Of a stretch of DNA of 35,432 nt, positions 1,569 to 8,060 are shown piece after piece. The stretch lies in contig CASDXQ010000015.1 in NCBI GenBank assembly GCA_949285145.1, forward strand, positions 1-35,432, in the 5' to 3' direction. Each line of letters begins with the position of its first letter. The first letter of the stretch is position 1. The position numbers and the translations under genes are program-made. Below the pieces are notes generated by a model that did no database searches, was not told where the DNA came from, and saw nothing but the letters and a program-made list of their open reading frames with translations. The DNA comes from an uncultured Spirochaetales bacterium (lineage in GTDB: Bacteria > Spirochaetota > Spirochaetia > Sphaerochaetales > Sphaerochaetaceae).

Positions 1569-2284
1569 TTTCTGTCATTCTCCTTTTTCCTGGATTCTTC
1601 CGTGAAATAAGCAGGATAAAGCCTTACAAGCTCCTCGACTTCATCATTCAGCTTGCTGAAATGATGTGAGAGAACCACGAGAACTTCATCCCCCCTTTCA
1701 TCCTCGATGGCCTGAGTCATCGCAAGATGCTCTTCATACACAGCCTGTGCCGCATCATGATTCATGTTGTTGAGGATTCTTATGCGCCGCTCGTTTCCTG
1801 TATGTGCTTCAATGACCTTGTATATTCTCTCAAAGCCTATTTCAATGTAGAAATTTCTGTGGAAGTCCACATCAAGGTCAATGAATGCCCTTATATCGTT
1901 TATCGAAAGACATGCACTCTGCTGTACAAGATTTGCCCTGAGCTGTGATGAGAAGCGTATTTTCCTTTCTTCATTCTCAAGAACATTCTCAATGCACACC
2001 CTGAAGACATTCTCCTCGACACTGAGGCGCAGAAATCTTTCCTGCATGATGTTCTTCACATCAAGCCTGGAAACCCATGTGCCTCGCTGAGGGTAGATGT
2101 CTATCAGCTTGTCTCTCTCCAGCCTGAGAAGCGCATCCCGGACCGGGGAGCGCGAGACTCCCAGATCCTGCGTAAGTTCAGTGATGGACAGTTCGCTGCC
2201 CGGCTCATAATAAAGATCCTCTATCCTGCTGCGGATAGTCTCATATATTCTAGAACCTGCCGTCTGATCGTACTTACTGTTCAT
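1565..2284 (-). CDS. GntR-family (FadR/FCD subfamily) regulator of the uxu operon
   Basis: A 239-residue transcription factor. The N-terminal winged helix-turn-helix (about residues 10-75) contains the typical LGVSRSPVRDALLRLE recognition segment. The C-terminal all-helical FCD domain carries the expected metal/ligand residues in DVDFHRNF, EEHLAMTQAI and LSHHFSKL. FCD regulators of this kind usually sense sugar acids; UxuR and ExuR in enterobacteria are family members that control hexuronate genes. The gene sits between uxuA and uxuB, overlapping both by the 4-base ATGA, so it is made from the same transcript it probably represses. The effector (fructuronate, mannonate or KDG) cannot be read from the sequence. 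Confidence 0.93.
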   Translation of the reverse strand: MNSKYDQTAGSRIYETIRSRIEDLYYEPGSELSITELTQDLGVSRSPVRDALLRLERDKLIDIYPQRGTWVSRLDVKNIMQERFLRLSVEENVFRVCIENVLENEERKIRFSSQLRANLVQQSACLSINDIRAFIDLDVDFHRNFYIEIGFERIYKVIEAHTGNERRIRILNNMNHDAAQAVYEEHLAMTQAIEDERGDEVLVVLSHHFSKLNDEVEELVRLYPAYFTEESRKKENDRK

Positions 2285-3357
2285 ACACCCCTTGATTCAG
2301 CCTTGTCGATTGCTTCCCACAGACCCTGGATATAGCAGGCACCGAGCGCTCTGTCATAAAGGCCGTAACCGGGCATGCACTTCTCACCCCAGATCGTGCG
2401 GCCGTGATCAGGACGGATCGGTCCGTCGAATCCTGTATCATGAAGAGCTTTAACGGCTTCGTACATATCGAATGTACCATCGCTTGAAAGGTGTGCGGCT
2501 TCTTCGAACACTCCGGGTGCGAAGTGGTGGAGATTCCTCACATGCGCAAAGTGAATCCTGTCACCCGCCGCGCGTATGATTGCAGGAAGGTCATTCTCCG
2601 GATTCGTTCCGAGACTTCCCATGCAGAATGTGAGACCGTTATATGGCTTGTCCACAGCCTTGAACAGCCTGAGGATGCTTTCCTTTCCTGTGATGATCCT
2701 CGGCAGTCCGAAAACAGGCCATGCGGGGTCATCCGGATGGATTGCCATTCTGATGCCGTATTTTTCGCACACAGGTCCGATTGCCTCAAGGAAGTAGACA
2801 AGGTTTGCAAACAGCTTTTCGCTGTCTACATCTTTATAGGCTTCAAAAAGTTCCTTCACATGTGAAAGTCTCTCCGGTTCCCAGCCCGGCATCACAAAGC
2901 CGTTTGAATTGTCATTTGTCTGGTTGAAGAATGTCTGCGGATCAATTGTATCGACAACTTTCTGGTCATATGCGAGAACAGTCGAACCATCAGGCCTCAT
3001 TTTCGCAAGATCGGTTCTTGTCCAGTCAAAAACCGGCATGAAGTTGTAGCATACGATGCTGATTCCTTCTTCACCGAGGTTCTCAAGCGTCTCAATATAG
3101 TTCTTGATGTATTTATCCCTGTCCGGTGTCCCGATCTTGATTGAGTCGTGGACATTGACTGATTCTATTCCTTCGATCTTGAGTCCTGCATCCTCAACGG
3201 TTTTCTTGAGTTCCCTGATTCTTTCTCTTGGCCATTTCTCTCCGGCCGGTATATCATAAAGAGTAGTGATGACACCTGTTACTCCGGGAATCTGTCTGAT
3301 TTCTTCGAGGGTCACGGAATCGTAGCCGGGCCCATACCATCTCAATGTCATTTTCAT
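2281..3357 (-). CDS. uxuA: Mannonate dehydratase
   Basis: Dehydrates D-mannonate to 2-keto-3-deoxy-D-gluconate in the cytoplasm; a divalent-metal (Fe/Mn) TIM-barrel enzyme. The 358-residue length is normal for the family. Metal-site segments seen: AIHPDDPAW, FCMGSLGTNP, HFAHVRNL and IRPDHGRTIWGE near the C-terminus. The start ATG at 3355-3357 has AAGGAG seven bases upstream on the minus strand (3365-3370). It is first in the uxuA-gntR-uxuB operon and its stop overlaps the gntR start (ATGA). A TTTACA-17-TAATAT promoter lies directly upstream. Confidence 0.96.
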   Translation of the reverse strand: MKMTLRWYGPGYDSVTLEEIRQIPGVTGVITTLYDIPAGEKWPRERIRELKKTVEDAGLKIEGIESVNVHDSIKIGTPDRDKYIKNYIETLENLGEEGISIVCYNFMPVFDWTRTDLAKMRPDGSTVLAYDQKVVDTIDPQTFFNQTNDNSNGFVMPGWEPERLSHVKELFEAYKDVDSEKLFANLVYFLEAIGPVCEKYGIRMAIHPDDPAWPVFGLPRIITGKESILRLFKAVDKPYNGLTFCMGSLGTNPENDLPAIIRAAGDRIHFAHVRNLHHFAPGVFEEAAHLSSDGTFDMYEAVKALHDTGFDGPIRPDHGRTIWGEKCMPGYGLYDRALGACYIQGLWEAIDKAESRGV

Positions 3358-3383
3358 ATGGAAGCTCCTTTGTTTTTCGATAT

Positions 3384-3397
3384 ACTAGAATATTAGT
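3384..3397. promoter_or_regulatory. Candidate GntR operator, ACTA-N6-TAGT
   Basis: ACTAGAATATTAGT is an imperfect inverted repeat (10 of 14 positions symmetric) that covers the -10 box of the uxu promoter, where a repressor would block RNA polymerase. The partner is inferred to be the operon's own GntR protein; the sequence does not match the classical enterobacterial UxuR site. Confidence 0.4.
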
Positions 3398-3418
3398 TCA
3401 ATAAATCCCTGCTGTAAA
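3390..3418 (-). promoter_or_regulatory. Promoter of the uxuA-gntR-uxuB operon
   Basis: On the minus strand: TTTACA (plus 3413-3418), a 17-base spacer, and TAATAT (plus 3390-3395), about 33 bases before the uxuA start codon. Five of six -35 positions and four of six -10 positions match the sigma-70 consensus, with ideal spacing. The -10 box lies inside the inverted repeat at 3384-3397. Confidence 0.65.
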
Positions 3419-3782
3419 GCAAAAACTCATAATAATATTATAAAAAGCAGTATTTTACAGAAAAAGCAAAATTTGAACATGATGCAGTGAGCAGGATCAG
3501 TGCAGACTGAGAAAATCCGTTTTTAAACTGTTGAGAGATGTCACTCCAGTTATTATTATTTTTATATATTAATAATACCTAATTAGGAATGATAATAATC
3601 AATATTATAATATAATCGGAAAGTCCGAAAACAGAAGATGTAGAACGTGCTCACACGGCGAAAAGTGACACCACATGAAAAAAATATAACAAAAAGTTTT
3701 ATAATAAAACAAAATTTAAAATTTAAATTTTAAATAATAAATTTAGTAAAATTATATAATATAAATTTTTATTAAAAATATG
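3398..3782. other. Non-coding AT-rich upstream region
   Basis: No coding frame is supported here. Seen: a CCTAATTAGG palindrome (3578-3587), a short hairpin TCGGA-aag-TCCGA around 3617-3629, and a block at 3681-3780 with only 4 G/C bases in 100. The block is made of A- and T-tracts such as AAAATTTAAAATTTAAATTT. It runs directly into the promoter at 3783 and could act as an UP element, curved DNA or a nucleoid-protein site. Confidence 0.6.
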
Positions 3783-3811
3783 TTGACATTGAAAATAATG
3801 CATGTTAACAT
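3783..3811 (+). promoter_or_regulatory. Strong sigma-70-like promoter of an orphan unit
   Basis: TTGACA (3783-3788), a 17-base spacer and TAACAT (3806-3811), directly downstream of a nearly pure A+T block. The -35 is a perfect match and the spacing is ideal. No recognisable protein gene follows; the next intrinsic terminator is at 4378-4416. Confidence 0.6.
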
Positions 3812-3817
3812 AAAGCT

Positions 3818-4416
3818 ATAAATAATAGTTTTATTATCTAACAATAAGACTGTTATTGTTCTTTGACATCGGTGAAAACGGATCTTTCAAGTGTGTTTTG
3901 TTTTATTCCGGGAACCTGTTTCAGAGTTCCGCTTACGGAATTGCCAGTGTTTTGTATTTCATCTTGAGATCCGGATATCAGATAGAGAGCCGGTATGTTT
4001 TCGGGTGTGTGAATACCGGTTATGGTGTGGGGGAACTTTCTGTCTGCTGCTGTCTGGATAACAGCGGCAGCAGACTTTGCTTCTTATGTGATGCCTTTCT
4101 GCCGGAACATATGGGCAATTCGTTCACTTCGGGTGAAATCATTGGGAAGCTGATGATGTTACTGCATATGGAGGAAATGATTCTGATTTCCCTCTGCTGA
4201 TCAGAGTTGTGCGTCTGATTGCCGTTATTGATGAAAAGGAAAAAAAGAAATGTGTTCTGTCTATAAATATCCGGCGGCACAGGTATATATATGCATGAAT
4301 GAAAATGACCTTTCTTCTGTTTTTTTCATTATGTTTTTCCTCCTGATATGTGTTTGTGCTGTATTCCATTGCAGCGTGAGACTGGAGATGACGGGTTTTC
4401 TCCAGTCTCTTTTTTT
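3818..4416 (+). ncRNA. Candidate structured non-coding RNA (orphan transcription unit)
   Basis: About 600 bases lie between a consensus-like promoter (3783-3811) and a strong intrinsic terminator (4378-4416). Inverted repeats inside: AACAATAA/TTATTGTT (3840-3860); GGAAC/GTTCC (3911-3930), which competes with TTCCG/CGGAA (3927-3940); CCGGTAT/ATACCGG (3990-4019); GTCTGCTGCTGT pairing with ACA and GCAGCAGAC (4042-4075); and TTCAC/GTGAA (4123-4137). It lacks the hallmarks of tmRNA, RNase P RNA, SRP RNA and 6S RNA that I looked for. The only long frame inside (3856-4200) starts at a TTG within a hairpin, has no Shine-Dalgarno sequence and resembles no family I know. A small unrecognised protein gene or a decayed gene remain possible. 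Confidence 0.4.
4378..4416 (+). terminator. Intrinsic terminator
   Basis: A perfect 10-bp stem, GAGACTGGAG (4378-4387) with CTCCAGTCTC (4400-4409), a 12-base loop and seven T residues. It is a classic rho-independent terminator on the plus strand, although no recognised gene precedes it on that strand. Confidence 0.85.
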
Positions 4417-4846
4417 CAATAATGGCAGTAAGGCATCTCATCAGTATCCTCTGCACATCTCAGAAAATGCAAAAGGACAGAGCCGAGGCGGCTCAGAGCT
4501 GCTCTGTTGTTTTCAAGCATATATCTTCTTGCTGTATCTTTTATTTACCTCTGATAGCCTTATTTGACGCAATGATGTTAAATTCTGTTTCTTTTATAGC
4601 TTTCAGGCTTTTTTTCATGCAGAAAATACCGTTTTCAAGCCTTAAAAAGGTAAAAAATGTGATAATAATCCAAATAAGCGCATATTCAAATCTTAATATG
4701 CATAAAATACGATTCATATCGAATCAGCAGAACATCAGAAGATCTTTTTCCGGTGTGTACGATAGTTGAGATGCATCTTGAGGAAATGACGGAAAGAAAG
4801 AGATGGATTCTCACATAAGTGGTAGGGAGAATTTAGTTAAACCGGC
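4417..4846. other. Intergenic region with adjacent hairpins
   Basis: No gene is supported here. Two perfect inverted repeats lie side by side, GAGCCG-agg-CGGCTC (4480-4494) and CAGAGC-t-GCTCTG (4494-4506). A further repeat GATTC-N5-GAATC lies near 4711-4726. The short frames through this stretch have no ribosome binding site and no family resemblance. Confidence 0.5.
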
Positions 4847-4877
4847 TGGACAATACATGAAGAAATTGGGGTATAAT
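4847..4877 (+). promoter_or_regulatory. Promoter of the split transketolase operon
   Basis: TGGACA (4847-4852), a 19-base spacer and a perfect TATAAT (4872-4877), followed by AAGAGG (4898-4903) eight bases before the GTG start at 4912. The spacer is longer than ideal. Confidence 0.5.
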
Positions 4878-4911
4878 AGACACAGACATATAACCATAAG
4901 AGGTATTGTAA

Positions 4912-5757
4912 GTGTTAGACGCATCAACTTTGGCAATGCTCAGGAAAGAAGCGCTTGATGCCAGGATCAAAACGATTGAATGCATTAGCTCTTTCGGCTC
5001 GGGACATATCGGCGGATCAATGTCCATAATGGAAACACTCGTATATTTATACTATGTCGGGATGAACGTGAAGAGCAGTGATCCCGGGTGGAAGGAAAGG
5101 GATCGGCTCGTGCTTTCCAAGGGGCATTCCGGCCCTGCTCTTTATGCTGTCCTGGCAAAGAAGGGATATTTCCCTGTCAGTGAACTTGTGACTCTCAACC
5201 AGGGAGGAACGAAGCTTCCAAGCCATGTTGATATGCTGAAGACTCCCGGTGTTGATTTCACAGCCGGTAGTCTCGGACAGGGCTTCAGTGCAGCACTCGG
5301 CATCGCAGCCGCACAGCGTCTCCAGGGGTTCCCCGGAGCTTATACATATGCAGTTATCGGAGACGGGGAGAGCCAGGAAGGCCAGATATGGGAGGCTGCT
5401 GAATGCGCAGGCGCATGGGGCGTTGATAATCTCATTGCTTTCACGGATGTGAACGGCCAGCAGCTTGACGGATACACTGAAGACATCATCCCCATGCATC
5501 ATCTGAAGGAACGTTATGAGACTTTCGGCTTTGATGCCTATGAGATAAACGGGCATGACTTCAATGCGATTGCAGATGCTGTGTCAAGTGCGAAGAAAGT
5601 GAAGGGCAAGCCTCACATGATCATCCTCAACACAATCAAGAGCTATGGCTATATTCCAGGAGAAGGTGTGAAATCGAACCATTCGATGAGCATCAATGAA
5701 GAGATGAGGAAGTCTTCAATCGAAGCACTTATAAAGAGAGAGGAGGCAGGAGAATGA
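4912..5757 (+). CDS. Transketolase, N-terminal (thiamine diphosphate-binding) subunit
   Basis: Carries the diphosphate-binding half of transketolase, which moves two-carbon units between sugar phosphates in the pentose phosphate pathway. At 281 residues it corresponds to the N-terminal half of a normal enzyme of about 650 residues. The cofactor/metal motif is seen as GDGESQEGQIWEAAE followed by DVNGQQLDG (about residues 145-185); GSGHIGGSMS near residue 30 and SLGQGFSAALG near residue 118 are also typical. It starts with GTG at 4912 behind AAGAGG. Its stop overlaps the start of the C-terminal subunit gene by four bases, so the two halves are translated as a pair. A related two-subunit ThDP enzyme acting on another sugar cannot be excluded. 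Confidence 0.93.
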   Translation: MLDASTLAMLRKEALDARIKTIECISSFGSGHIGGSMSIMETLVYLYYVGMNVKSSDPGWKERDRLVLSKGHSGPALYAVLAKKGYFPVSELVTLNQGGTKLPSHVDMLKTPGVDFTAGSLGQGFSAALGIAAAQRLQGFPGAYTYAVIGDGESQEGQIWEAAECAGAWGVDNLIAFTDVNGQQLDGYTEDIIPMHHLKERYETFGFDAYEINGHDFNAIADAVSSAKKVKGKPHMIILNTIKSYGYIPGEGVKSNHSMSINEEMRKSSIEALIKREEAGE

Positions 5758-6840: not shown

Positions 6841-7536
6841 TCAGGCTTGTGATCCATGCTTTCCGCTGTTCTTTCTGTCCTTCTGAACTTCAATCAGCAC
6901 AAAGAATAACGGGATGATTGCAAGTGCGATTGTACGGCTCATCAGCACTCTGGATGAGAAGGAGCACAGCATGGCTCCCGCAATGAATGTGAGTATCATC
7001 CCGATATGGTAGAAAGCCTTTTTGCAAGCAGTCCCGTCTTTTGATCTGAGTGCATTGTAAAGACAGGAACCGCCTCCTCTCAGGTGTGCCGTGCAGAAGA
7101 GTGTGGACAGCTGCACGCCACGGGCTTCACGGAATGTGTTGTACTGCATGCTGCTTATGAGTGCTATCATCACATGGAAGATGGTGAAGGGAGCATTTTC
7201 AGGCAGCAGGGCGAGGAATGCCAGGAGGATCATCTCACTGAAGATGAGCAGGGACGGCCAGCGGTGCTTCAGCTTGTCCTTGAACATTTCGGAGAAGAAA
7301 GTACCGATGAAAAATGTGCTGATTGGTACTAGCACTTTTGCCGCATCAGAGAAACTGCCCTGTGAGAGGTGCATTGCGAAGATCAGAAGATTCGCAGTCT
7401 CTGCATTCGCAAAGACCCCGCCTTTGAGGTAATAGGAGTATGCTCCCATGAAACCGCCTGAGAGCATGAGAAGAATGAATGTATGATAGCGCCTTTCCGC
7501 TGATATTTTTTCCTGCATGGAAATGACTATATCCAT
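6841..7536 (-). CDS. DUF1275 (YoaK-like) membrane protein
   Basis: A 231-residue polytopic inner-membrane protein of the DUF1275 family, whose biochemical role is not established. The diagnostic N-terminal pattern is present: GGFMGAYSYYLKGGVFANAE followed by TANLLIFAMHL (about residues 27-58). Hydrophobic segments occur at about 17-37, 66-85, 95-113, 118-135, 173-193 and 200-218. It ends in a basic, polar tail. The start at 7536 has no clear ribosome binding site; Met7 (7518) is an alternative. It is divergent from the macro-domain gene with only 29 bases between the starts. Confidence 0.85.
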   Translation of the reverse strand: MDIVISMQEKISAERRYHTFILLMLSGGFMGAYSYYLKGGVFANAETANLLIFAMHLSQGSFSDAAKVLVPISTFFIGTFFSEMFKDKLKHRWPSLLIFSEMILLAFLALLPENAPFTIFHVMIALISSMQYNTFREARGVQLSTLFCTAHLRGGGSCLYNALRSKDGTACKKAFYHIGMILTFIAGAMLCSFSSRVLMSRTIALAIIPLFFVLIEVQKDRKNSGKHGSQA

Positions 7537-7565: not shown

Positions 7566-8060
7566 ATGATCAGAGTCGAAGTTGCAAATATTGTGAAAAT
7601 GAAGACTGATGCCATAGTCAATGCTGCAAATGAAAGCCTTCTAGGCGGAGGAGGTGTTGACGGTGCGATACATGCCGCAGCAGGGCCTCTCCTTCTTGAA
7701 GAGTGCAGAAAGCTCGGAGGATGCAGGACAGGTGACGCAAAGACTACCGGTGCATACAACCTGCCGTGCAGGTACATAATCCATACTGTGGGACCTGTCT
7801 GGAGAGGAGGCTCTTACGGTGAAGATGAGAAACTTGCCTCCTGTTACCGCTCTGTGCTCAGAGAGGCCGCATTGCATGACATCCGCAGCATTGCCATTCC
7901 CCTGATCAGCACTGGAGTCTATTCTTTTCCGCGTGACAGAGCCGCACGCATTGCGCTGAGGGAACTCAAGGACTCTGATCTTGATATCACGATAGTCTGC
8001 TACTATCCCCGGGAGAGGAAGGAATACGACGAGCTTCTCAATGAAGGCATTCCTCTGTGA
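7566..8060 (+). CDS. Macro-domain protein (O-acetyl-ADP-ribose deacetylase-like)
   Basis: A 164-residue stand-alone macro domain that should bind ADP-ribose and may hydrolyse O-acetyl-ADP-ribose or remove ADP-ribose from targets, like YmdB/MacroD proteins. Motifs seen: [20 protein letters not shown] (about residues 15-34), covering the adenosine/ribose-binding loop with the catalytic Asn-Asp region; [19 protein letters not shown]; and [14 protein letters not shown] (about 117-130), the phosphate-binding loop. No Shine-Dalgarno sequence precedes the ATG. No ADP-ribosyltransferase or sirtuin is visible nearby, so its substrate is unknown. Confidence 0.93.

Follow-up and report, generated by a model that had tools for sequence, protein, structure and literature searches.

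Long untranslated transcripts are targets of Rho in bacteria. Protection by boxA, which reads TGCTCTTTAACA in the rRNA leaders of E. coli and TGTTCTTTGAAA in those of B. subtilis, is established for rRNA operons and CRISPR arrays; the complexes that assemble on boxA act chiefly against Rho and not against strong intrinsic terminators. In E. coli, boxA keeps Rho from terminating long untranslated RNA (PMC4807359). According to the part of PMC7862264 that cites Stringer et al., boxA is also found upstream of natural CRISPR arrays, whose transcription it increases (PMC7862264). The bacterial RNAs ROOL, GOLLD and OLE are long (~500–800 nt) and elaborate, occur in limited lineages and have no coding frame, and the cryo-EM paper that describes them does not mention boxA (PMC12286853). 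An abundant long noncoding RNA of 520 nt in Lactobacillus salivarius is megaplasmid-borne, independently transcribed and confined to a single species group; boxA is unmentioned there (PMC5643018).

In the window analysed here (the whole stretch of DNA, 35,432 nucleotides), which comes from an uncultured spirochaete, the ordinary sugar-metabolism genes uxuA (2281–3357, minus strand) and transketolase N (4912–5757, plus strand) are separated by a gap of 1,554 bases (3358–4911) without a matched protein gene, which corresponds to the 1.5-kb gap of a preliminary description made from the same DNA. No reading frame in this gap matched Pfam or PHROGs, in agreement with the earlier statement that no recognisable protein is encoded. 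We propose that positions 3783–4416 form an autonomous gene whose product is a ~600-nt structured noncoding RNA, that its boxA loads Nus factors against Rho, and that an intrinsic terminator marks its end, and we put the probability of this reading at roughly 0.7. Elsewhere in the window, a DUF1275 membrane protein gene (6841–7536, Pfam match) adjoins a frame at 7566–8060 which by eye resembles a macro-domain protein.

The sigma-70-type promoter TTGACA-17-TAACAT, already noted in the preliminary description, is present on the plus strand at 3783–3811 (-35 at 3783–3788, -10 at 3806–3811), and TG precedes its -10. The window's genome (W, or G000) was compared mainly with G001 and G012; all genomes compared are apparently metagenome assemblies. 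An AT-rich region directly upstream (3691–3782, plus strand), with A/T tracts immediately before the -35 that may act like an UP element, is strongly conserved in the three genomes, and its -35-proximal part contains an 18-nt identical run. Since 17 promoter-like sites were found in the AT-rich stretch against 8.2 expected, the promoter on its own is weak evidence; it becomes credible because TTGACW-N17-TANNMT is retained in both G001 and G012 despite a spacer that has mostly diverged. The TTGACA within TTTGACATC was rejected as the start of a second promoter, since it lacks a -10 at a distance of 16–18 nt and since another relative, G014, keeps TTCTTTG but not TTGACA.

The transcribed unit (3812–4416, plus strand) is a predicted noncoding RNA of ~600 nt which probably starts near 3818. 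At its end, the terminator and seven T residues reported earlier were recovered as GAGACTGGAGA-N10-TCTCCAGTCTC (4378–4409, plus strand) followed by T7 (4410–4416), with a stem measured at 11 bp and a 10-nt loop. The automated terminator scan overlooked this element because it accepts loops of at most 8 bases. In the relatives, the stem is restored by double changes, with 10 of 10 pairs formed in G012 and 8 of 10 in G001, where two pairs are broken.

The preliminary description had suggested blastn and covariance-model searches of related genomes, and these revealed syntenic homologues. By blastn, the unit lies at the same place in G001 and G012, two other species of the genus, and a covariance model of its 5' half (R1) recovered only the W, G001 and G012 loci from 139 genomes of the family. 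A match of G089 to this model (E 0.4) was regarded as chance, and blastn matches in G010, G021 and G037, which fall in the AT-rich upstream stretch, were left out as homologues.

Identity of the unit in the three pairs of W, G001 and G012 is 71, 68 and 82% (0.71/0.68/0.82), against 55, 50 and 70.5% (0.55/0.50/0.705) for the fourfold-degenerate sites of transketolase N in the corresponding pairs, which indicates that the unit is under constraint; the fourfold sites of uxuA are 63% identical between W and G001. Between G001 and G012, identity ranges from 0.65 to 0.93 over the stretch that begins 5' of the promoter and closes with the terminator, but is ~0.5 directly past it. This fall shows that the conserved entity is the transcription unit.

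A conserved frame with a bias towards synonymous substitution had been named beforehand as the observation that would speak against a noncoding RNA. What we found instead were substitutions spread evenly over codon positions, with counts of 48/56/61 and 62/57/67 for the three (against 93 of 112 in transketolase), without codon periodicity among W, G001 and G012, and common gaps of 1, 2, 4, 5, 7 and 8 nt, mostly not multiples of three, so that the unit shows neither the periodic substitutions nor the gaps in threes of a protein-coding sequence. The 123-codon stop-free run in W and a similar 30-residue stretch in G001 and G012 (HGYKDQLDIQLVDEDAEAF / HDYKDQLDVQLVDEDTEIL) could point to mRNA for a small, rapidly evolving protein or to a protein gene in decay. 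However, changes within the 30-residue stretch are mostly nonsynonymous, no frame is open in all three genomes, gaps break the frames, 3-periodicity is absent, and there is no Pfam or PHROG match; a decayed gene, moreover, would not change more slowly than fourfold sites. We therefore regard both protein-based explanations as very unlikely.

The preliminary description had also noted inverted repeats along ~600 bases, and folding bears this out. The predicted energy of 3817–4416 is -188.2 kcal/mol against -156.3 ± 5.9 for dinucleotide shuffles (z -5.4), and since none of 100 shuffles reached the energy of W, the structure exceeds chance. The relatives gave z values of -6.7 (G001) and -3.8 (G012). 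Together, constraint, the missing codon signal and the fold z support the long structured noncoding RNA proposed in the preliminary description, which is the best reading.

When the first 285 nt of W, G001 and G012 were folded separately, the five helices P1–P5 (all on the plus strand) were common to the three, P1 being shorter in G012. P1 is a hairpin at the 5' end (3821–3857) with arms nearly invariant in the three genomes, and it is part of the minimum free energy structure of W and G001. In P2, a 5' strand at 3858–3870 pairs with GGTGTGGGGGAAC at 4024–4036; neither strand varies among the three genomes, and their pairing probability is ~0.7–1.0 in the three independent folds. The 5' strand overlaps the boxA-like element described below, and we refer to its partner as anti-boxA. 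P3 (3881–3972), a helical domain between boxA and P4, is present in the independent folds and by eye contains two double-sided changes between W (GATCTT/GAGATC) and G001 (GAGCCT/AGGCTC). P4 (AGCCGGTAT/ATACCGGTT, 3988–4021) has 9 bp in all three genomes, four double-sided changes and a conserved GGTGTGT loop. P5 (GTCTGCTGCTGT...CAGCGGCAGCAGAC, 4042–4075) is conserved in the three, with one-sided changes that preserve pairing.

The consensus energy of the plain MAFFT alignment is -57.3 against -35.1 ± 3.9 for shuffled alignments (z -5.7, 0 of 100 as low). With P4 re-registered by hand it is -63.4 against -35.6 ± 3.8 (z -7.3, 0 of 100 as low); as this re-registration favours structure, the figure to trust is the MAFFT z of -5.7. 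Double-sided pair changes are not above chance in these three sequences (6 against a mean of 4.7 in shuffled alignments), and covariation is hence not significant.

About 40 nt into the transcript lies a boxA-like element of rRNA type, TGTTCTTTGACA (3857–3868, plus strand), and TGTTCTTTGACATC from position 3857 is invariant in W, G001 and G012. The presence of an rRNA-type boxA word in the unit is a new observation of this analysis, one that the preliminary description had not made. The rest of the 170 kb checked did not contain TGTTCTTTGACA. In the open-access literature that we searched, no earlier account of a free-standing structured RNA with a boxA came up, a negative result of little weight. 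By computation, then, the locus is a conserved unit that evolves as noncoding sequence, has a common fold and carries a boxA-like word at an rRNA-like position.

Examination of the transketolase loci of the genus brought up two further genomes, G014 and G009, with a long gap at the corresponding place. Both lack a match to the R1 covariance model and cannot be aligned with the unit, and both have the same order of motifs. The promoter is followed by a boxA-like word and then by GCCAGTGT, a motif which is invariant in W, G001 and G012 (3943–3950 in the window, plus strand) and which in G014 and G009 is similarly spaced from the boxA-like word. The order reads TTGACA-18-TATGTT, GTTCTTTGGAATC, GCCAGTGT in G014 and TTGACA-17-TACAGT, AGATTTTTGAAAGA, GCCAGTGT in G009. 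Judged by motif order and synteny, G014 probably carries a homologous unit and G009 possibly does. In G009 (L029:632-692), a strong hairpin with nine T was seen by eye ~320 nt past the promoter, which would make this unit half as long as the others; the fold z of the ~320 nt is -3.5. The terminator scan did not list this end hairpin, which is followed by GC-rich sequence, and in the G014 unit it gave no convincing terminator.

In the 139 family genomes, 30 loci matching a pattern of boxA plus GCCAGTGT were inspected, and a promoter preceded the pattern nowhere but at the unit's position. In GTDB contigs, the pattern matched three Spirochaetales loci with a promoter, which are those of G001, G012 and G014, and seven others without one. 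In viral contigs, 19 matches were obtained, mostly within long open frames, and the few promoter-like cases were not credible.

The unit words resemble a consensus of the YGYUCUUURANA type in all five genomes: TGTTCTTTGACA in W, G001 and G012, CGTTCTTTGGAA in G014 and AGATTTTTGAAA in G009. In four genomes, the -35 begins 76–80 nt 5' of the TTCTTTG core, which is an early-leader position. The word of the G009 unit, AGATTTTTGAAA, is identical to the boxA-like word in the 16S leader of G001. TGTTCTTTGGCA occurs in the 16S leaders of two relatives at class level. In the 16S leaders of this genus, the corresponding place is occupied by another boxA-like word, AGATTTTTGANA, which is also the one in the G009 unit; these genus words were recognised from position and resemblance alone. 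Nothing clear was found as a boxA before the 23S rRNA in G017. As the window's assembly contains no 16S rRNA, its boxA is not comparable with a leader of its own.

The five genomes were then searched with a pattern consisting of the promoter, 35–50 nt and KTTYTTTGRMA. Five matches were obtained, the unit in W, G001, G012 and G014 and one rRNA leader in G014, and the reversed pattern used as control gave none. Since the pattern was devised after viewing the unit loci, the four unit matches were expected; G009 falls outside it because its boxA word differs. What is informative is that almost no other genomic site matched and that the sole extra one is, to judge by its close resemblance to the 16S leader of G012, an rRNA leader. 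This leader (L123:1500-1703, G014:C8 end) is located at a contig end, and the assembly lacks the 16S gene that belongs to it.

It may be asked whether TGTTCTTTGACA has anything to do with Nus factors, or is a mere P2 strand of a structured noncoding RNA gene that pairs with GGTGTGGGGGAAC. The invariance of both P2 strands in three genomes, their pairing probability of 0.7–1.0 and the other word carried by the genus's own rRNA leaders are all consistent with a purely structural role. Nevertheless, TTCTTTGGAATC is retained at this position in G014, where no partner strand was recognised and the word pairs instead with a local arm on its 5' side. In G009 the position is taken by AGATTTTTGAAAGA, the rRNA word of the genus, and the spacing from promoter to boxA retrieves an rRNA leader. 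On this balance, a purely structural strand seems rather unlikely to us, and we retain a boxA with a role in Nus-factor loading.

In every genome carrying it, the unit is directly 5' of transketolase on the same strand. This holds also for G014 and G009, where uxuA is upstream of the unit but parted from it by other genes. In G014 (L116:2777-4123, G014:C6), uxuA is set apart from the RNA unit by a long open frame that by eye resembles an IS605/OrfB-type transposase and by a second gene, so that the RNA has remained with transketolase and not with uxuA. The constant linkage to transketolase would suit a long 5' region acting on the transketolase operon in cis, as regulatory leader or attenuator, with a terminator that is bypassed in some condition. 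However, transketolase has a separate promoter, TGGACA-19-TATAAT (4847–4877, plus strand), conserved in W, G001 and G012, and another of its own in G014 (TTCACA-17-TATAAT); the terminator intervenes, followed by ~500 nt of poor conservation before the gene; and complexes on boxA are in general known to oppose Rho more than strong intrinsic terminators. Control in cis thus appears unlikely, and as transketolase has its own conserved promoter, a structural RNA acting in trans seems to us the likelier alternative.

Several features of the region past the terminator were also recorded. The promoter at 4847–4877 and its flanks are near-identical in the three genomes, and a conserved TATATAACCATAAGAGGTATTGTA leader precedes the GTG start. 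The stretch from the terminator to this promoter (4420–4830) is poorly conserved and contains a strong GC-rich hairpin, GAGCCGAGGCGGCTC, at 4480–4494; in the matching stretch of G001 and G012, a short patch is better conserved between these two genomes.

For the autonomous gene, we infer transcription, Nus-factor loading and the order of pairing as follows. RNA polymerase would start just 5' of ~3818 and make the short 5' hairpin. The boxA would emerge within 40–50 nt and, by analogy with rRNA leaders, recruit NusB-NusE (S10) and other Nus factors; we propose that it binds NusB-NusE and suppresses Rho. The loaded polymerase would then resist Rho while elongating across the untranslated RNA, until the intrinsic terminator ends the transcript. 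The boxA strand would next pair with GGUGUGGGGGAAC ~165 nt downstream and close a multibranched domain in the mature RNA. In all three sequences, the predicted unpaired fraction of boxA is ~0.25–0.45 just before anti-boxA is made and 0.09 just after. One could go further and suppose that the RNA acts on the antitermination machinery itself, nascent boxA capturing the NusB-S10/Nus complex and anti-boxA then burying boxA, so that it would serve as a timed decoy for Nus factors, or as their regulator, and through them influence rRNA output; we consider this extension distinctly improbable.

If the proposed reading is correct, a stand-alone structured RNA with an early boxA would be a third kind of boxA user. 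A promoter with the species' own boxA ~40 nt further on, and no rRNA after it, could then serve as a handle in searches for long noncoding RNA genes, and the short list of large RNAs would gain a member whose fold is conserved and whose place in the genome is fixed.

A diverged form of a known large RNA (ROOL, GOLLD or OLE), a known housekeeping RNA or the remnant of a CRISPR leader might come to mind, given the comparable size, the ornate fold and the boxA words upstream of CRISPR arrays (PMC7862264). Yet the window gave no Rfam match at the gathering threshold, and the ROOL, GOLLD and OLE models matched neither the window's unit at E up to 10 nor the four related loci at E up to 1. There is no repeat array in 3000–5200, no tRNA gene across the whole window and no match of the unit's locus to phage or plasmid DNA. 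Membership of a known family seems scarcely probable. Permissive Rfam matches (plastid psbA 3' UTR, snoRNAs, atoC, AniS) scored far below gathering and were taken as chance.

By description, not by sequence, the proposed gene can be likened to the L. salivarius RNA of 520 nt, which is also long, independent and limited to a single species group; the latter is on a megaplasmid, whereas the unit has no plasmid match. Like ROOL, GOLLD and OLE, which are marked by homo-oligomeric RNA assembly, it is long, elaborate, lineage-limited and noncoding. Unlike ROOL and GOLLD, which are carried by phages or prophages and often lie near tRNA genes, it occupies a syntenic chromosomal locus without tRNA or phage. 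With the CRISPR arrays preceded by boxA it shares a nonribosomal noncoding transcript and a boxA near its start, but its locus is devoid of repeats, spacers and cas genes. The leader of rRNA operons (NusB-NusE, SuhB, NusG) has in common with the unit a strong promoter, a boxA ~40 nt in and a long untranslated structured RNA. The unit differs in having no rRNA behind it, a boxA strand predicted to pair downstream, and a single transcript of ~600 nt with its own terminator. If the inference holds, its first 60 nt would work like an rRNA leader.
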